Shown here one piece after another: positions 1,976 through 10,451 of a DNA stretch of 10,451 nt. This DNA comes from Actinomycetota bacterium (GTDB taxonomy: Bacteria > Actinomycetota > Actinomycetes > Actinomycetales > Microbacteriaceae): contig WLFI01000012.1 in the NCBI GenBank assembly GCA_009703845.1, positions 1-10,451 of the forward strand, written 5' to 3'. The notes beneath the pieces are model-generated. The model saw only the letters and a program-made list of their open reading frames with translations. It ran no database searches and was not told the DNA's origin. Numbering within the stretch: position 1 is the first letter of the stretch; each line of letters opens with the position of its first letter. Made by a program: the position numbers and the translations under genes.

Positions 1976-4393
1976 ATGAGCTCAGAAATCAATCCCGAAG
2001 AACGCATCGTTGACATCGATCTGACGTCAGAGATGCAGGACTCGTTTCTGGAGTACTCCTACTCGGTCATTTACGCTCGAGCGCTGCCCGACGCTCGCGA
2101 CGGCCTTAAGCCCGTGCACCGCCGAATCATCTACCAAATGGGTGAAATGGGGCTGCGGCCAGATAAGGGTCACGTAAAGTCAGCTCGCGTTTCGGGCGAG
2201 GTAATGGGAAAGTTGCACCCACACGGCGATGGTGCAATCTATGACGCGATGGTGCGCATGGCGCAGCCGTTCACCCTGCGCGTGCCTCTTATTGATGGCC
2301 ACGGAAATTTCGGTTCACTAGATGATGGCCCGGCTGCTGCTCGTTACACCGAGACACGTCTGGCTCCAGCCGCGCTTTTGATGAATGATGGCCTCGACGA
2401 GGATGTCGTTGACTTCAAGCCAAACTACGATGCGCAACTTTCTGAGCCTGAGGTGCTGCCAGCAGCTTTTCCGAACTTGCTTGTAAATGGATCTTCTGGA
2501 ATCGCAGTAGGCATGGCTACAAACATGCCCCCGCACAACATGCGCGAAGTGATCGCTGCTGCAAGGCACTTGCTGGCCAACCCTGCCGCCACGACAGAAG
2601 ATTTGATGCGATTCGTTCCAGGTCCAGACCTTCCAACCGGCGGTATCATCGTCGGTCTCGATGGAATCAAGGACGCCTATGAAAATGGTCGTGGTTCTTT
2701 CAAAACCAGGGCGAAGGTGAGCGTTGAGAGCGTCAGCCCCCGCAAACTTGGCTTAGTGGTTACCGAACTTCCCTATCTTGTTGGCCCGGAAAAAGTCATT
2801 GAAAAGATCAAAGATGGAGTCAACAACAAGAAGCTGCTTGGCATCTCAGACGTCATTGACCTAACCGACCGAACCAACGGCCTCAAGTTGGTCATTGAAC
2901 TCAAGACAGGGTTTGACCCTCAAGTGGTTCTGGACCTTCTCTATCGGTATACGCCGATGGAAGACTCTTTTGGCATCAACAACGTCACTCTCGTAGATGG
3001 CAGGCCAAACACGCTCGGTTTGCGCGACCTGCTTGGCGTCTACCTCGCCCATCGCGTTCAGGTCACGCGACGCCGCACAACCAACCGCCTCGGCAAGAAA
3101 AAGGCCAGGCTGCATCTGGTTGAAGGTTTGCTGATCGCAATCGTCGCAATAGACGAAGTCATTCAAGTTATTCGAAGCTCCGAAGAAGTCGATGAGGCTC
3201 GCTCGCGACTAATGCAGATTTTTGAATTGAGCGAAATTCAAGCCGAGTACATTCTTGAGCTGCGTCTTCGTCGACTCACCAAATTTTCGAGAATCGAACT
3301 CGAAACCGAGAAGTCTCAACTCGAAGAAGAGATTCGCGCGCTTGAGCGAATTTTGTCAAACGATTCAGAGTTGCGTGACCTAGTTAGCAGTGAACTAGCC
3401 GACGTTGCCGAAAAGTACGGCGATGACCGGCGCACCTTGCTAATGGATGAGTCAGATGTGGTGCGTAGCGTTCCAGCATCCAGGTCAACGGCTGTTTCAG
3501 CCGAACTGGCTGACAGTGCCGCCACGGTGCTACTCACGGTCACAGGTCTAATGGGTCGTGTCGCAGAAATGCCTTCGGTAGCAGCTAAGCGCAAAAAGCA
3601 TGACGTCTTCAGCCATCGAATCGACACGACTACCCGAACCGACATCGGTGCCGTCACGAGCGCCGGACGAATGATTCGCGTTCACGTTGGTGATATTCCG
3701 GATGCGGGTGCTGCGCTAGAGGCCGGTGCGATGGTGCGCGCATCCGAGTTCTTTGGGCTTTTGGCTTCAGAAACGCTCGTCGGGTTAATCGAATTGAAGG
3801 ACACGAATGAGCTGGCCTTGGCAACTGCTCAGGGAACGGTTAAGCGTGTGCTGGCCGATTACCCAGCCAAAGAGCACTTCGAACTAATTGCTCTAAAAGA
3901 CGGCGATCAAGTTGTTTCCGCAGTGTTGGCCAACGAAGCGAAAGAATACGTAATCGTTACCAGCGACACTCAAGTTTTGCGATTCTCAGCCGACACGGTT
4001 CGATCCCAGGGCCGGGCGGCTTCAGGAGTTGCAGGAATCAATCTCGCAGATGGAGCGAAAGTTATTGCCTTTGCTGCGATCACGAGGCCAGATGAGGCTT
4101 TCGTAGTCACGGCCGCGAACTCCTCTGCCGCGTTGGCTGGTACCGATGCCGGAAGCATTAAGCTCTCTTCCCTGGCGGAGTTTCCAGCTAAGGGTCGCGC
4201 TACCGGAGGCGTACGCGGGCAAAAACTATTGCGTAGCGAAGATCAGTTGTATTTTGCCGCGGCAACCAATCAATCGCCGGCGGCAAGTGCCACGGACGGC
4301 AAACCACTGGAGTTGCCAGAATCTGCAAAGCGCGACGCTAGCGGCACACCTGCCCCCGCCGCCATTCGCGGCGTTGGGTTCTTGCTCGACTAG
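1976..4393 (+). CDS. parC: DNA topoisomerase IV subunit A (ParC)
   Basis: The 805-residue breakage-reunion subunit of topoisomerase IV. As A2B2 with ParE it decatenates daughter chromosomes and relaxes supercoils. The N-terminal winged-helix domain carries A-R-A-L-P-D-A-R-D-G-L-K-P-V-H-R-R (34-50) and the drug-binding helix region M-G-K-L-H-P-H-G-D-G-A-I-Y-D (77-90). The catalytic pair Arg123-Tyr124 lies in A-A-R-Y-T-E-T-R-L-A. The tower domain follows, then a charged coiled coil near 440-465. From about 515 a degenerate beta-pinwheel shows repeated G-x-x-x-R-V/L-type blades. I see no GyrA-box, and the gene sits by parE and rpoD rather than recF/dnaA, so ParC fits better than GyrA. Gly86 occupies the position of E. 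coli GyrA Ser83. Length is normal. The last 35 residues are Ala/Pro-rich and probably unstructured. The ATG at 1976 has only a weak purine stretch ahead. The gene is convergent with parE. Confidence 0.93.
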   Translation: MSSEINPEERIVDIDLTSEMQDSFLEYSYSVIYARALPDARDGLKPVHRRIIYQMGEMGLRPDKGHVKSARVSGEVMGKLHPHGDGAIYDAMVRMAQPFTLRVPLIDGHGNFGSLDDGPAAARYTETRLAPAALLMNDGLDEDVVDFKPNYDAQLSEPEVLPAAFPNLLVNGSSGIAVGMATNMPPHNMREVIAAARHLLANPAATTEDLMRFVPGPDLPTGGIIVGLDGIKDAYENGRGSFKTRAKVSVESVSPRKLGLVVTELPYLVGPEKVIEKIKDGVNNKKLLGISDVIDLTDRTNGLKLVIELKTGFDPQVVLDLLYRYTPMEDSFGINNVTLVDGRPNTLGLRDLLGVYLAHRVQVTRRRTTNRLGKKKARLHLVEGLLIAIVAIDEVIQVIRSSEEVDEARSRLMQIFELSEIQAEYILELRLRRLTKFSRIELETEKSQLEEEIRALERILSNDSELRDLVSSELADVAEKYGDDRRTLLMDESDVVRSVPASRSTAVSAELADSAATVLLTVTGLMGRVAEMPSVAAKRKKHDVFSHRIDTTTRTDIGAVTSAGRMIRVHVGDIPDAGAALEAGAMVRASEFFGLLASETLVGLIELKDTNELALATAQGTVKRVLADYPAKEHFELIALKDGDQVVSAVLANEAKEYVIVTSDTQVLRFSADTVRSQGRAASGVAGINLADGAKVIAFAAITRPDEAFVVTAANSSAALAGTDAGSIKLSSLAEFPAKGRATGGVRGQKLLRSEDQLYFAAATNQSPAASATDGKPLELPESAKRDASGTPAPAAIRGVGFLLD
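4390..4393. other. Tail-to-tail stop-codon overlap of parC and parE (CTAG)
   Basis: The palindrome CTAG carries both stops: TAG of parC at 4391-4393 on the plus strand and TAG of parE at 4392-4390 on the minus strand. There is no intergenic base and no room for a classical hairpin terminator outside coding sequence. Transcripts from each side must therefore end inside, or run antisense into, the neighbouring gene. Confidence 0.9.
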
Positions 4394-6471
4394 GCGTCAA
4401 CCTTATCGGTGTCGAAATCGTCAGCGCTGTCGATGATGAAATCTCGACGAGGCGCGACATCATTACCCATCAATAGTTCGAATACTCGCTCAGCCGCTTC
4501 TGCGTCTTCTACTCGAACGCGGCGTAAAGCACGTCTGGAGCGATCCATCGTGGTTTCTGCAAGTTGATCAGCATCCATTTCGCCCAATCCCTTGTATCGC
4601 TGAATTGGCTCTTGATAGCGCTTGCCTTGAGCCTTCAACTTAGCTAGCAGTGACTCAAGTTCTTGCTGAGAGTATGTATAAATAGTGTCGTTTGGCTTGG
4701 TGCCGGCGTTGACGACAACAACCCGATGTAAAGGAGGAACCGCTGCATAAACTCGCCCGGCGTCGACAAGCGGTCTCATGTATCTAAAGAACAGGGTGAG
4801 AAGCAGCGTTCGAATGTGAGCGCCATCGACATCGGCGTCGCTCATCAGAATCACCTTGCCGTAGCGAGCGACATCTAAATCGAAAGATCGACCAGAACCA
4901 GCACCAATCACCTGAATAATCGAGGCGCACTCGGCATTGCTCAACATGTCGCTAACCGATGCCTTTTGCACGTTCAAAATCTTTCCGCGAATCGGCAATA
5001 GGGCCTGGTACTCACTATCGCGAGCAAGCTTTGCCGTTCCTAGCGCCGAGTCACCCTCGACGATGAATAGTTCGCTGACTGCAGTTTCTTGTGTGCGGCA
5101 ATCTACCAACTTGGTTGGAAGCGAAGAAGATTCGAGGGCGTTCTTGCGGCGCTGGGTCTCTTTGTGAGTGCGCGCAGAAATGCGTGATTTCATCTCGGCC
5201 ACCACTTTTTCAAGCAGCATGGCGGCTTGCGCCTTATCGTCGCGCTTTGAGCTTTCGAAACGCTCGGTTAGAGCCTTCGCGATGGTGTTTGAGACGATGT
5301 TGCGAACAGCTGGGGTTCCTAGAACCTCTTTGGTTTGGCCCTCGAACTGCGGTTCGGCGAGTCGCACTGTGACCACAGCGGTTAGGCCTGCAAAGACGTC
5401 ATCTTTTTCGACCTTGTCGTTACCCGCCTTGAGTTTGCGCGAGTTGGCTTCGATTTGGGCTCGAAGAACCTTGAGCAGCGCTTGTTCGAATCCGCTGACG
5501 TGGGTTCCACCTTTAGGCGTAGAAATTATGTTGACGAAGGATTTCAAAGTTGTGTCATAGCCGGTTCCCCAGCGAAGAGCGACGTCGACTTCGCAGTTTC
5601 GTTCAACCTCGCGCGATTCCATGTTGCCCTGTTCGTTGAGCACGGGCACGGTTTCGGTGAATGTTGTGGCGCCGCTCAAGCGCCAAGTGTTGGTTATCGC
5701 ATTGTCGTTTGCCAAGTAATCCACAAACTCGACAATGCCGCCATCGTACTTGAAGTCGCTTACTATGGCTTCGCTTGAGCGCTGGTCATTGACCTGCAGT
5801 CGCAACCCAGGCACCAAAAATGCGGTTTGACGTGCACGCGACATGAGCTCGTCGGTTGCAAACGAAGCATCCTTGATAAAAATCTGCGGGTCAACCCAGT
5901 ATCGAACTCGGGTGCCGGTAACTCCCTTAGCTACCTTGCCCACTACATCGAGCGAGCTGGCATCTTCAAAAGGTGTGAACGGACTGTTGGCCGAGATACC
6001 ATTCGAGTCATCGAATCGACCTGGCTCACCTCTGCGAAATGACATGCGGTGGGTCTTGCCATCGCGGTCAACCTCAACGTCTAGGCGAGCCGAGAGCGCG
6101 TTTACGACCGAGGCGCCAACGCCGTGAAGTCCTCCGGATGCCGCATATGAACCAGACCCGAACTTTCCTCCGGCGTGCAGCTTTGTGAAAACGACCTCTA
6201 CACCGCTGAGACCGGTTTTTGGTTCGATGTCAACGGGGATGCCGCGAGCTTGGTCTCTAACCTCTACCGAACCGTCGGCGTGCAACTGAATATCTATCGC
6301 ACTTCCGTGGCCAGCAAGCGCCTCGTCGACTGAGTTATCGATGATCTCCCAGAGGCAGTGCATAAGACCACGGCTATCGGTCGACCCGATGTACATACCC
6401 GGGCGCTTACGAACCGCCTCTAAACCCTCTAGAACAGAGAGGTGTCTGGCGGAGTAATCGGTGTTGGGCAC
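4390..6471 (-). CDS. parE: DNA topoisomerase IV subunit B (ParE), ATPase subunit
   Basis: The 693-residue ATPase subunit partnering ParC. The N-terminal GHKL ATPase shows Y-S-A-R-H-L-S-V-L-E-G-L-E-A-V-R-K-R-P-G-M-Y-I-G, the N-box E-I-I-D-N-S-V-D-E-A-L-A-G (Asn46), D-Q-A-R-G-I-P-V (73-80) and the ATP-lid glycines G-G-L-H-G-V-G-A (113-120). The transducer domain contains Q-F-E-G-Q-T-K-E (375-382). The TOPRIM domain has V-E-G-D-S-A-L-G (471-478; Glu472) and D-A-D-V-D-G-A-H-I (545-553; metal ligands Asp545, 547, 549). The C-terminal R-Y-K-G-L-G-E-M-D motif is followed by Q-L-A-E-T-T-M-D. The long insertion of Gram-negative GyrB is absent, as expected. The start is GTG at 6471: a stop (TAA, 6483-6481) lies four codons upstream, so little choice remains, and the N-terminus aligns with ParE. 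No Shine-Dalgarno is visible. Odd point: Ala75 replaces the first Gly of the D-x-G-x-G nucleotide motif. Confidence 0.93.
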   Translation of the reverse strand: MPNTDYSARHLSVLEGLEAVRKRPGMYIGSTDSRGLMHCLWEIIDNSVDEALAGHGSAIDIQLHADGSVEVRDQARGIPVDIEPKTGLSGVEVVFTKLHAGGKFGSGSYAASGGLHGVGASVVNALSARLDVEVDRDGKTHRMSFRRGEPGRFDDSNGISANSPFTPFEDASSLDVVGKVAKGVTGTRVRYWVDPQIFIKDASFATDELMSRARQTAFLVPGLRLQVNDQRSSEAIVSDFKYDGGIVEFVDYLANDNAITNTWRLSGATTFTETVPVLNEQGNMESREVERNCEVDVALRWGTGYDTTLKSFVNIISTPKGGTHVSGFEQALLKVLRAQIEANSRKLKAGNDKVEKDDVFAGLTAVVTVRLAEPQFEGQTKEVLGTPAVRNIVSNTIAKALTERFESSKRDDKAQAAMLLEKVVAEMKSRISARTHKETQRRKNALESSSLPTKLVDCRTQETAVSELFIVEGDSALGTAKLARDSEYQALLPIRGKILNVQKASVSDMLSNAECASIIQVIGAGSGRSFDLDVARYGKVILMSDADVDGAHIRTLLLTLFFRYMRPLVDAGRVYAAVPPLHRVVVVNAGTKPNDTIYTYSQQELESLLAKLKAQGKRYQEPIQRYKGLGEMDADQLAETTMDRSRRALRRVRVEDAEAAERVFELLMGNDVAPRRDFIIDSADDFDTDKVDA

Positions 6472-6869: not shown

Positions 6870-7484
6870 CTAGTGGTTTGCCTCTAGGCGCCAGATCTCT
6901 TCAACAAAACCATCCGCGACCTCTTTCGATTCGCTCGAACTATTCTCTGCCCCCATTAGCCTGACAACTCGTTCAACCCAACTCGGGTTCTTAGCGAAAA
7001 AAGGACCGTGTAGCAGGGTAAGAATGACGTTGGACTCCACAGAAACCGGCGGCAATTCCAAGTCACTGTTCAGATACCCAAGGGCGTTGCTCGGCCAATC
7101 TTCAGCGCTTGATGTGGCCACGACGAATTCACTTCGGCGATCGCTTTTGGAACCAGCATTGACGTTCGCCCACTTCAACGCACTGCCAACCACAATCGCA
7201 GGTGTTTTCGACTCGATAATTGCCTCTAGCAAGTCTCGAATAAGCGCATCGTGAGCGGCCAGTGCTTGCATCGCGGCAGCTGAGCCGTGCCCGATGGTGA
7301 CAAAAATGCCGGTCTCGCTGCTTTTAACCAAGCGCAGGAGTTCGAGCAATTGGCTCTCGGTTGCTACCGACACACTCTGCGCCTGCTCCCCCATCCACTC
7401 AAAATTCTTTTGAAGAACAAATGAGTTTGCGGAGTCTCCGTTCAGGTTGAGCATCTCGGGAAACAAAGTGAATATTGTCTTCAT
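6870..7484 (-). CDS. gatD: GatD-like class I glutamine amidotransferase homologue lacking the catalytic cysteine
   Basis: A 204-residue GatD homologue. Normal GatD hydrolyses glutamine and passes ammonia to MurT for amidation of lipid II D-Glu. The N-terminus L-F-P-E-M-L-N-L-N-G-D-S-A-N (7-20) and the C-terminal L-L-H-G-P-F-F-A-K-N-P (157-167; His159 matching catalytic His189 of S. aureus GatD) are clearly of the family. Between them it is abnormal. The nucleophile elbow, normally C-A/G-G-Y-Q, reads V-V-G-S-A-L-K-W, with Gly100 at the Cys94 position. The G-G-G segment reads G-H-G-S (65-68). The E-N-H-G-G-R-T segment has collapsed, perhaps to G-Y-L-N-S-D (136-141). The protein has no Cys at all and is about 40 residues shorter than S. 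aureus GatD (about 243). The frame is intact, with a strong ribosome-binding site and an ATGA overlap with murT, so it looks expressed. I infer a non-glutaminase scaffold or ligase partner. Confidence 0.8.
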   Translation of the reverse strand: MKTIFTLFPEMLNLNGDSANSFVLQKNFEWMGEQAQSVSVATESQLLELLRLVKSSETGIFVTIGHGSAAAMQALAAHDALIRDLLEAIIESKTPAIVVGSALKWANVNAGSKSDRRSEFVVATSSAEDWPSNALGYLNSDLELPPVSVESNVILTLLHGPFFAKNPSWVERVVRLMGAENSSSESKEVADGFVEEIWRLEANH

Positions 7485-8752
7485 CGCTCGACCTCCTCTG
7501 GGCTCCAGAAGCCAAGAGCGCGCCTCATTCGACGCATAGCGTCAGCACTGAAAACCACGGTTTTGTGGCCCGTTTTAGGCTTTGGCATCGCGAAGAACGC
7601 AGTTGCGGCTCGCTCGAGATCATCGGTAACTAAACCCATTGGCACATCGTTGTAGTGCAGCACGAGGGCTGCTTCGTAGGCGTTGAAGCCCGTGCATACA
7701 TCGACGTGTTTCAGATTCGAATAGTCAACCGTCCAAAGCCATGACGGGTCGTGCACGTCACGGCCGATTGCGAAAAGCAATTGTTCTGGTTCGCCAACCA
7801 AGTTATCTAAGTTGAGCTGCATTGACCCTGGGTTCTGAACGAGGATGAACTCGACATCCTCCCCGTTAACCTGAACCATCTCGCCACGGGCAAAAACTGG
7901 CGGCACTTCACCCAAGGCTTTGGTCGCGAGCTGAAGGTCGAAACCTTCACCGAGAAAGGCCCGGGCGCTTTCGAATGCAGCGACCGCATCAAGAGCGAAG
8001 TGCACGCCTCGCGAAGGCAGGTCGAAATCGGTTTTGCCCCATGCCCCAGAAAGTTCTGCGCGAACACCGTCTAGGCGGCTCACTTCACTGGATGTTTGAG
8101 GCCTTGGCAGGTCAGGCAGGTAAGTTGGAGCATTTTGCAAACCTCGGCCTTGAGCACCGAGCACCTTAGAGGCCACTCCAAAGAACCTAGGCTGAACGCC
8201 TCGCACCTCATTCGCGATCAGCAACGTATTTTGGTCATCGGCATTTAACAAGACATCGCCGCTGGCCCGTTGCGCCACAAGTGCGAGGTCTGCGCGAACT
8301 AAAGCCGGGTCAACAAACCTATCTAGTTGGTCTTCCATTACATTCAAGACCGTGACCTGAAGAGGGGCTATCTTTCGACTCAACTCTTCGGCGTGCGCTT
8401 CATCCATTTCAAGAATCGCGACTTGGCCAGAAATCTTTCCTGACCAATTAGCACGTTCGATGATTGTCGAATAGAAGCCTTGCAAAATGTTTGCGGTCGA
8501 AGGGTTTGTGAATACGGCAACACCATGTTCGCGAACGATATTCACCAACATCTTGGTGGTGGTTGACTTTCCTGCCGAACCTGTGACGATTACCAGGCCC
8601 TTCGGGAACGAACCGAGAACTCGATAGAGAATTCCCGGCGCAATCTTGCTAAGAATTAGACCGGGCAGCGCCGATCCGCCGCCTTTACGAACAAGTCGAA
8701 TAAGAATGCGCGCGATTCGCCCAACCAGCAATGCGGGCCAGTATCGAATCAC
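7481..8752 (-). CDS. murT: MurT-like Mur ligase (DUF1727) without zinc ribbon
   Basis: A 423-residue Mur-ligase-family protein paired with the gatD-like gene. MurT activates the alpha-carboxyl of D-Glu in lipid II with ATP so GatD-derived ammonia can form D-isoglutamine. Seen here: a basic, hydrophobic N-terminus; P-loop G-S-A-G-K-S-T-T-T (58-66), usually G-T-N-G-K-T-T-T; T-N-P-S-T-A-N (82-88); L-E-M-D-E (114-118); N-V-M-E-D-Q-L-D-R (137-145), usually N-x-x-R-D-Q-x-D-R; N-A-D-D (170-173); and in the DUF1727 part V-Q-N-P-G-S-M (305-311), usually A-K-N-P-A-G, and D-P-S-W-L-W (335-340). Asp335 aligns with Asp349 of S. aureus MurT, the third member of the shared triad. The Cys4 zinc ribbon expected near 200-240 is missing; the only Cys is 353. 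GTG at 8752 starts 7 bp after rpoD ends, without a clear Shine-Dalgarno. Family membership is firm; standard amidation activity is doubtful. Confidence 0.85.
   Translation of the reverse strand: MIRYWPALLVGRIARILIRLVRKGGGSALPGLILSKIAPGILYRVLGSFPKGLVIVTGSAGKSTTTKMLVNIVREHGVAVFTNPSTANILQGFYSTIIERANWSGKISGQVAILEMDEAHAEELSRKIAPLQVTVLNVMEDQLDRFVDPALVRADLALVAQRASGDVLLNADDQNTLLIANEVRGVQPRFFGVASKVLGAQGRGLQNAPTYLPDLPRPQTSSEVSRLDGVRAELSGAWGKTDFDLPSRGVHFALDAVAAFESARAFLGEGFDLQLATKALGEVPPVFARGEMVQVNGEDVEFILVQNPGSMQLNLDNLVGEPEQLLFAIGRDVHDPSWLWTVDYSNLKHVDVCTGFNAYEAALVLHYNDVPMGLVTDDLERAATAFFAMPKPKTGHKTVVFSADAMRRMRRALGFWSPEEVER
7491..7497 (-). promoter_or_regulatory. Ribosome-binding site of the gatD-like gene inside murT
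   Basis: On the minus strand AGGAGGT lies 6 nt before the ATG at 7484, within the codons for the last residues of the MurT-like protein. With the ATGA stop-start overlap (7484-7481) it indicates translational coupling and near-equal production of the two subunits, as expected for a complex. Confidence 0.8.
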
Positions 8753-8759
8753 GGTTTGG

Positions 8760-10451
8760 TTAGTTCTCTAGGAAGTCGCGAAGCATCTGCGAGCGTGAAG
8801 GGTGACGAAGCTTTGACATCGTCTTGGCTTCAATCTGCCTAATTCGTTCGCGTGTGACGCCAAATTCTTCACCGATTTGATCGAGAGTCTTTTGCACGCC
8901 ATCGCCCAAACCGAAGCGGCTTCGAATGACGCCGGCCTCTCGTGGGTGCAGAGAATCTAGGATGCGCTCGAGTTCTCTTTGCAGCATCGAATAACCAACG
9001 GCGTCTGCGGGAACAACAGCTTCGGTGTCTTCAATAAGGTCGCCGAATTCTGAATCGCCGTCTTCGCCGAGAGGCGTCGAGAGCGAAATCGGCTCGCGAC
9101 CATACTTCTGAACCTCGACTACCTTTTCGGGGGTCATGTCGAGCTCGCGAGCTAGTTCTTCTGGAGTTGGTTCGCGACCAAGGTCTTGAAGCAGTTGACG
9201 CTGCACTCGGGCAAGCTTATTGATGACTTCAACCATGTGAACCGGGATGCGGATGGTGCGCGCCTGGTCAGCCATCGCACGGGTAATAGCTTGACGAATC
9301 CACCAGGTTGCATAGGTAGAGAACTTATATCCCTTGGTGTAATCAAACTTCTCTACGGCGCGAATTAGACCTAGGTTGCCTTCTTGAATGAGGTCAAGAA
9401 ACTGCATTCCACGGCCGGTATAACGCTTAGCCAGCGAGACAACCAAACGTAGGTTGGCTTCGAGAAGGTGAGACTTGGCACGTTGTCCGTCTTTCATGAC
9501 CCAACGCAGATCGCGGGTCATCTCTTTCGAGAGCCTCTTCTCGGTGGCTAGCTTCTCTTCGGCGAACAAACCAGCCTCGATGCGTTTTGCAAGTTCAACC
9601 TCGAGCTCGGCGTTAAGCAGGGCCACCTTACCGATTTGCTTTAGGTAATCTTTGACCGGGTCAGCAGTAGCGCCAGAGATTGTGGTGGTTTGAACCGGGA
9701 TGTCGTCATCGTCGGCATGCGAGATAACAAAACCGCCACCGGCTTCGAGAGCCTTCTCTTTTTCTTTTGCCTCGGTGTCTTCGTGCGTTTCTTCTTCGTG
9801 AGCCTCTTCTTCGGCAAGCTCTACGATGTCAACAGCGGCGGCAGCTTCGGCGACGATGTCGCCAACTTCAAGGTCGTCATCATCTTCAAACTCTTCTTCT
9901 TCACCTGCAGCTCCCTTAGGAAGCTTCGCGGCTTTCGCAGCCTTTGCTTTGGTCGCGGCTGGCTTTGCTCCATCGACTTTTGTTGCTAGCGCTTTTTTCG
10001 CGACTGGCTTTTCAGCAGTCTTCTTAGCTTCAGGCTTTGGCTCAACTACCTTGACGTCGGCTTTCTTGGCCTTTGAAGCAGCCGGAGCTGCCTTAGCCTC
10101 AGGAGCTTTTGAAACGGATGCCTTTGGGGCCGTTGATTTCACAGTAGCGACAGGCTTCGTAGCTGCCGCGGTCTTTTTAGCTTCTGTGAGGGTCGACTTG
10201 GCCGCGGGCTTGGTCTCGGGCTTAGCCGCGGTCTTTGCTGCAGGCTTGGCCGCAGGCTTGGCCGCAGGCTTTTCGGCTTGCTTTGCCGTCTTTGGCTTGA
10301 CAGGGGCTGTCTTAAGTTCTGGCTTGGCCGAAACTACCTTCTTGACCGGTGATTTTAATGAAGTCGCCTTCGGCTGAGCCGCTGCTTTTGGTTCAGATTT
10401 GGTCTTTGTGTTCTTGACTGCAGGAGTAATGATGTTGCTTTCTGGCTTGGC
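8760..10451 (-). CDS. rpoD: Primary sigma factor RpoD/SigA (HrdB-type), 5' end cut by window edge
   Basis: The housekeeping sigma-70 factor, which directs RNA polymerase to most promoters. About 563 residues are visible. The frame stays open without a stop from base 10451, so the start lies outside the window and the GTG at 10142 is internal. Counting from the window edge, residues 1-180 are Lys/Ala/Pro-rich with K-P-A-A repeats. An acidic stretch (about 183-230) follows, then region 1.2 ([16 protein letters not shown], about 264-279). Region 2 includes [11 protein letters not shown] and [13 protein letters not shown] (about 334-389). Region 3 is about 400-470. Region 4 has the helix-turn-helix [11 protein letters not shown] and ends [16 protein letters not shown] (to about 561). 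The core closely matches mycobacterial SigA, whose N-terminus is likewise basic then acidic. It leads the murT-gatD-like genes. Confidence 0.95.
10241..10271 (-). repeat. 12-bp in-frame tandem repeat in the rpoD N-terminal tail
   Basis: CAGGCTTGGCCG (plus-strand reading) occurs twice exactly at 10241-10252 and 10253-10264, and a third partial copy runs to 10271. On the coding strand it encodes successive K-P-A-A units. Degenerate relatives of the unit extend on both sides (about 10200-10240). Being a multiple of three, copy-number change by slippage would alter tail length without a frameshift. Confidence 0.75.

Follow-up and report, generated by a model that had tools for sequence, protein, structure and literature searches.

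The closest described relative of the gene pair considered here is the MurT/GatD lipid II isoglutaminyl synthase of Staphylococcus aureus, Streptococcus pneumoniae and Streptococcus pyogenes, which is likewise encoded by two coupled genes and has the same two folds. MurF, MurD and the pseudomurein peptide ligases, whose folds are the next best after MurT for the ligase described below, couple an activated carboxyl to an amino acid or peptide, have a full N-terminal domain and lack a GatD partner. Group B cross-linking of peptidoglycan has been a chemotaxonomic hallmark for decades. In the open-licence literature searched, no enzyme is assigned to the defining group B bond, and a MurT/GatD pair without the glutaminase cysteine is likewise undescribed there. 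Such a pair is carried by contig WLFI01000012.1 of a Microbacteriaceae genome. The window, that is, the whole stretch of 10,451 nucleotides analysed, is this one complete contig (G000:C24), from a 945-kb genome that is 62% complete. The Cys-less pair is real and conserved. The pairs of the family to which the genome belongs (f1; 199 genomes, 178 of them near-complete) are divided below into class A, which is canonical, and classes B and C, which are Cys-less. The features of the locus are as follows.

7481..8752, minus strand: MurT-like ligase gene (class C, subtype C1), GTG start, 423 aa; open reading frame (ORF), profile and structure searches
6870..7484, minus strand: GatD-like gene without the catalytic Cys, 204 aa; ORF, profile, alignment and structure model
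7185..7187, minus strand: codon of Gly100, in the column of the nucleophile Cys of GatD (C94 in S. aureus, C107 in S. pneumoniae); alignment and column counts
7281..7292, minus strand: GHGS (residues 65-68), in place of the oxyanion-hole GGGQ of GatD; alignment
7008..7010, minus strand: codon of His159, the GatD triad His, retained; alignment
8555..8581, minus strand: MurT P-loop GSAGKSTTT (residues 58-66; canonical GTNGKTTTT)
7988..7999, minus strand: MurT Phe252 to Asp255, where canonical MurT has two adenine-contacting Asn (S. pneumoniae N270 and N273)
7805..7837, minus strand: MurT QNPGSMQLNLD (residues 306-316; canonical KNPAGF), the signature of subtype C1
7748..7750, minus strand: MurT Asp335, equivalent of S. 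pneumoniae D355 and S. aureus D349, kept
8760..10451, minus strand: sigA/rpoD-type sigma factor gene, running off the contig end; class B and class C pairs usually lie next to such a gene

Read along the minus strand, sigA/rpoD is followed after a 7-base gap by murT (8752-7481) and then gatD (7484-6870), gatD overlapping the murT stop by 4 bases. The GatD-like protein has no Pfam match at E<=0.01, and its sole profile match is NCBIfam GatD (E 7e-4). Its AlphaFold model (predicted local distance difference test, pLDDT, 93.6) and its structure matches, the nine best from Foldseek all being solved GatDs, place it in the class I glutaminase fold of GatD. The nucleophile column holds Gly100 (in AIVVGSALK), GGGQ has become GHGS, and the catalytic His (in LLHGP) is kept.

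The same loss runs through the class. Family loci were sorted by hidden Markov model class and checked against the MurT tree; rows are loci, and G113, G122 and G159 contribute two each. Repeat fetches (L001, L058, L059, L063 and L072) and L151, which is not a GatD, were dropped before counting. For the GatD counts the divergent L117 and L129 are kept apart and L128 is moved to class C by its MurT placement; for the MurT counts L117 stands within the 97 class C rows, and L128 and L129 within the 12 class B rows. The Cys column of the 97 class C GatD rows contains no Cys at all, holding Gly in 69, Ala in 17, Ser in 5, Asn in 4 and Thr in 2. The triad His is present in 67/97 and lost in the other 30, and an exact GGGQ or GGGE occurs in none, versus 22/22 of the class A rows from the same family, which also have both Cys and His in 22/22. 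In other families of the order, Cys is found at 31 of the 34 loci read, the 3 exceptions having Arg or Asp together with degenerate MurT motifs. The C94G and C94S mutants of S. aureus GatD are reported to lose glutamine-dependent amidation (PMC3266927, PMC6113224); with its Cys gone, the window pair would by analogy be excluded from that activity.

The MurT-like protein matches Pfam Mur_ligase_M, with a MurT_C match slightly below the cut-off. Its best solved relative is S. pneumoniae MurT (6fqb_A, E 1e-23), and for its AlphaFold model (pLDDT 85.9) the 11 best rows are MurT, followed by pseudomurein ligase, MurF and other Mur ligases. As in the described synthase, the P-loop Lys, the Mg-binding acidic residues, the acceptor Asn85, the hinge Arg304 and the GatD-facing MurT Asp (355, or 349 in S. 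aureus) are present: in S. pneumoniae numbering (after PMC6085368), K59, N85, E110, E113 and R304 are conserved in 97/97 class C rows, and D112 and D355 in 96/97. N85 contacts the acceptor carboxylate in related ligases (PMC6085368). The triad His and the MurT Asp are further shared with the synthase, both in the window (His159, Asp335) and, to the extents counted above, in class C. Judged by its residues, class C MurT looks like an active ligase. The earlier note had proposed at 6870-8752 a MurT/GatD-like pair whose GatD-like subunit is unable to supply ammonia and whose MurT-like ligase still activates the carboxyl. Both ORFs stand as placed, the nucleophile Cys is gone from the window and from 97/97 class C rows, and the ligase residues are kept in 96-97 of 97.

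Beyond the missing Cys and the replaced GGGQ, class C differs from the described synthase in its adenine-contacting Asn pair and its KNPAGF motif. N270 is Tyr or Phe in 87/97 class C MurT rows and N273 is Asp in 92/97, Asn being retained in 2 and 5 rows, respectively; the window has Phe252 and Asp255. KNPAGF is replaced by [K/Q]NxxSxQLNxD, the region before D355 is shorter by 3 residues, and the loops on the C-terminal-domain side are unlike those of canonical MurT. The NPxS-like motif of class C resembles that of MurF. The window MurT has a single Cys and therefore, unlike the synthase, no Cys4 zinc ribbon.

In a quick tree, class C MurT is a single clade (Shimodaira-Hasegawa-like approximate likelihood ratio test, SH-aLRT, 100; 99 rows, two of them repeat fetches), and the canonical MurTs of the family intermix with MurTs from other families. 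Over 400 codons, the window MurT shares 86% identity with the MurT of a named Rhodoluna metagenome-assembled genome (MAG). Among related database proteins, some carry the label Rhodoluna sp. or Microbacteriaceae, and we therefore regard the host as a Rhodoluna-like member of the Microbacteriaceae. The ratio of nonsynonymous to synonymous substitution rates (dN/dS) is 0.11-0.17 for GatD and 0.05-0.07 for MurT (two pairs, one near saturation at synonymous sites), and selection on the class C pair is purifying. A decaying or non-functional remnant, to which the universal loss of Cys and the loss of His in 30/97 rows could be put down, is extremely improbable in the face of dN/dS values of 0.05-0.17, intact ORFs, invariant ligase residues and retention in small genomes. 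A pseudogene is ruled out by dN/dS and the invariant ligase residues, and an oddity of a single contig by the absence of Cys from all 97 class C rows.

Class C is present in about 129 of the 199 family genomes, this count being the 162 MurT-positive genomes less 18 with canonical pairs only, 12 with class B, and G005, G053 and G123, with unfetched genomes classed by score only. From the order-level search, which scored the best 8 candidates per genome, only the matches are used. Canonical pairs occur in 22/199 genomes (all candidates scored) and share a genome with class C in 4/199, versus about 14 expected (p 2.8e-6). Class B (THNALEVLG) is found in 12/199 genomes, with its MurT on a branch separate from class C, and in none of the 12 does it occur together with class C (p 1.9e-6). 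Class B pairs resemble class C in having a GatD without Cys and a slot behind sigA; unlike class C, their GatD His is also lost, and their MurT keeps N273 in 12/12 and N270 in 10/12. Among assessable loci, sigA lies directly upstream of 9/9 class B and 72/76 class C pairs and of 0/22 canonical pairs; a further 21 loci of class C, 1 of class B, 19 from other families and 1 odd one were too short for assessment, and the class B loci come from 10 of the 12 genomes with this class. Given this mutual avoidance and the shared slot behind sigA, we read classes B and C as in-place replacements, which suggests that they do equivalent work.

Exclusion of a similar kind is evident in a second phylum. Across 115 genomes around an Erysipelotrichaceae MAG, the MurT_C match is high-scoring in 48, low-scoring in 27 and absent in 40. 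The loci read comprise 30 high-scoring and 28 low-scoring ones (the latter from 27 genomes), of which L431 yielded no GatD. Cys is present in 30/30 high-scoring GatDs and absent from 27/27 readable low-scoring partners, L409 having a Cys one residue beyond the aligned column. By score, no genome holds both types (p 4e-8), and B-like pairs also occur in this Erysipelotrichaceae-type family. The family includes group B genera; the set shows exclusion of pair types, not wall type. The association of Cys loss with group B peptidoglycan proposed in the earlier note is borne out coarsely, at the level of the Microbacteriaceae and through one clade, hence one origin; Cys-less pairs also occur outside that family, in organisms that may or may not have group B walls.

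A pair that rarely shares a genome with its canonical counterpart, in two phyla, points to the same substrate for both. Action outside peptidoglycan, on another precursor, a glycopolymer or a cofactor, would fit the replacement of both adenine-contacting Asn and the 3-residue shortening before D355, but it is quite unlikely in view of that exclusion and of the acceptor-contacting N85, kept in 97/97.

Wall chemistry bears on what the substrate and product may be. Rhodoluna is the nearest named genus found for the window pair. The peptidoglycan of Rhodoluna lacicola is of type B2beta with 2,4-diaminobutyrate (Dab), homoserine (Hse) and glycine; its hydrolysate contained Dab:Ala:Gly:Hse:Glu at 0.8:0.5:0.9:0.4:1.0, and D-Ala-D-Dab and Gly-D-Glu were recovered (PMC4156110). 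These values do not separate bridge Dab from stem Dab, but something in Rhodoluna has to link an amine to the alpha-carboxyl of D-Glu in many of the stems. The group B wall earlier assumed for the host thus holds for its lineage, through the chemically shown B2beta wall of Rhodoluna. Six Mur-domain genes are found in the single-contig genus-mates G010, G092 and G154 and in the window's own incomplete genome (the count of 7 for G010 is due to FolC being split in two pieces). From cluster order and place we read these as MurC, MurD, MurE, MurF, FolC and the MurT described here, which is the only spare Mur-type ligase in the genus-mate genomes.

Since the wall chemistry calls for an enzyme acting at this carboxyl, and the genus-mates offer this MurT as their only spare Mur-type ligase, our leading hypothesis, held with somewhat less than even confidence, is that in the window's lineage the Cys-less pair is a bridge ligase, as one of several ways to make group B branches. 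MurT would activate a carboxyl with a nucleotide, most likely the alpha-carboxyl of D-Glu in lipid II, as in canonical MurT. The GatD-like subunit would be a pseudo-amidotransferase, drawing no ammonia from glutamine, and the activated carboxyl would be joined to an amine of non-glutamine origin, for which the bridge residue D-2,4-diaminobutyrate is the best candidate in the Rhodoluna-like lineage. What the pair acts on, which nucleophile attacks and what the GatD subunit does are inferred here. If true, wall type would become predictable from sequence, and the passage from amidotransferase to amino-acid ligase via loss of the glutaminase would clearly exemplify enzyme repurposing. Independently of that outcome, some database entries call class C MurT an isoglutaminyl synthase, and the lost Cys contradicts glutamine-dependent activity. 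The class C MurT of Microbacterium esteraromaticum (P0182) bears the database name 'proposed amino acid ligase found clustered with an amidotransferase'.

Several observations weigh against a bridge ligase, some of them biochemical. Carbamoyl phosphate synthetase I uses free ammonia instead of glutamine, and the pair may still amidate D-Glu in this manner, with GatD as a structural partner only. S. aureus MurT together with GatD C94G carries out NH3-dependent amidation at pH 8.5, for which GatD is still needed, but does not use NH3 at pH 7.5 (PMC3266927, Table 2). Gly, the same change as in C94G, is the commonest replacement of Cys (69/97), and the patchy presence of the pair would suit a dispensable modification. 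Amidation with free ammonia is nevertheless unlikely: the carboxyl concerned seems in Rhodoluna to be largely occupied by D-Dab (the hydrolysate reported in PMC4156110 had 0.8 Dab per Glu), the oxyanion motif has been rewritten and the C-terminal-side MurT loops altered as well, and the coexistence of canonical and class C pairs in 4 genomes indicates that the two are not simply redundant. The nucleotide is a further difficulty for the bridge ligase. S. aureus MurT N267Y is inactive (PMC6113224), N267 being taken here as the equivalent of N270. With both adenine-contacting Asn changed, the base-binding site of class C MurT would by analogy be rebuilt, and the Asp found there makes GTP or some other nucleotide conceivable.

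Other difficulties lie in the distribution of the pair. No MurT match at E<=1e-25 is found among the best 8 candidates per genome in 37 of the 199 family genomes, including 32 of the 178 near-complete ones; one of the 37, G099 (66% complete), has a GatD-like match at a contig edge. A repeat search of 20 of the 37, scoring all candidates, left 19 empty, and the single match is read here as MurC. A hidden divergent MurT copy is ruled out for these 20 genomes (19/20 empty, and 20/20 empty with the divergent L117 MurT). An extra Mur ligase is lacking in 15 of 17 MurT-less genomes, which have exactly five Mur-domain genes, the exceptions being G023 with 6 and G020 with 7 matches; the same search gave at least 6 in all 15 class C, 4 class B and 4 class A genomes. 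A further 18 genomes have only a canonical, Cys-bearing pair (7/18 fully re-searched), the presence of the pair varies within genera g7, g9, g58 and g84, and a non-Mur bridge enzyme is possible in any genome. The whole family is taken as group B. If all of its genomes are so, the 37/199 without MurT and the 18 with canonical pairs only mean that the Cys-less pair cannot be the general builder of group B branches, as the earlier note had it, and is at most one of several solutions.

The absence of any MurT found from part of the family, and the variable presence inside genera, would also accord with an optional decoration, in which the pair adds some other small amine or amino acid (e.g. Gly) to the D-Glu alpha-carboxyl and a different enzyme makes the bridge. 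This, too, has a low probability in our estimation. The small single-contig genomes of the window's genus keep the pair, and genomes of <=2.0 Mb make up 34 of the 162 with any MurT versus 1 of the 20 listed as MurT-less (20 of the 37).

For the bridge ligase, a relation between gene subtype and bridge residue may be discerned. Subtype C1, that of the window, is found in Rhodoluna, Cryobacterium, Glaciihabitans, Agromyces, Naasia and Amnibacterium, and subtype C2 in Curtobacterium, Microcella, Okibacterium, Microbacterium esteraromaticum, M. resistens and Pontimonas; the pattern scan of named genomes gave at least 13 usable Microbacteriaceae loci, and its pattern also matched other Mur ligases. 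We take the walls of Agromyces and Rathayibacter to contain Dab (the Rathayibacter locus is incomplete, with only the P-loop seen), those of Curtobacterium and the former Aureobacterium species of Microbacterium D-Orn, and those of Microcella and Okibacterium Lys. Microbacterium also includes species that lack the pair, which may be of the Lys type. The literature searched held nothing usable on the wall types of Curtobacterium, Okibacterium, Microcella, Naasia and Amnibacterium. Dab walls are reported for Rhodoluna, Cryobacterium and Glaciihabitans (PMC4156110; PMC7033078, Table 3). C1 tends to go with Dab walls and C2 with non-Dab walls, a pattern that is suggestive only, with few genera, two gene clades and chemistry that is partly assumed. 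Pontimonas weighs on the other side as a possible counter-example, being C2 with a wall that may contain Dab, since its diamino acid is absent from the differences to Rhodoluna listed in PMC4156110. A broader proposal, possible but on the doubtful side, is that an amidotransferase turned amino-acid ligase places the D-diamino acid bridge on D-Glu, and that the group B peptidoglycan of a large share of the Microbacteriaceae arises in this way. C1 would then add D-Dab and C2 D-Orn or D-Lys, and class B would have been recruited independently and have taken over the same slot of the operon.

Additional variants of the pair can be seen in the family and its order. The 927-kb reduced genome G015 (L097) retains a class C pair in which Ser stands at the Cys position and the His is kept. 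Second, divergent class C copies with a KSPA-type motif lie beside a normal C1 copy at L049 (G122) and at L301/L052 (Amnibacterium setariae). Other divergent MurT/GatD-like pairs of the family are L117 (G053), L311 (G123) and L129 (G005); the GatDs of L117 and L129 are both without Cys, and their MurTs have Cys-rich stretches that may be a zinc ribbon. In family f7 of the same order, L132 and L133 (G494 and G503) have MurT and GatD parts in one ORF, with Cys replaced by Arg and His by Gln; their MurT motifs are degenerate. This is another deviation from the canonical pair. Elsewhere in the window are convergent type II topoisomerase genes, GyrA/ParC-like at 1976-4393 on the plus strand and GyrB/ParE-like at 4390-6471 on the minus strand, whose ends overlap by 4 bases.

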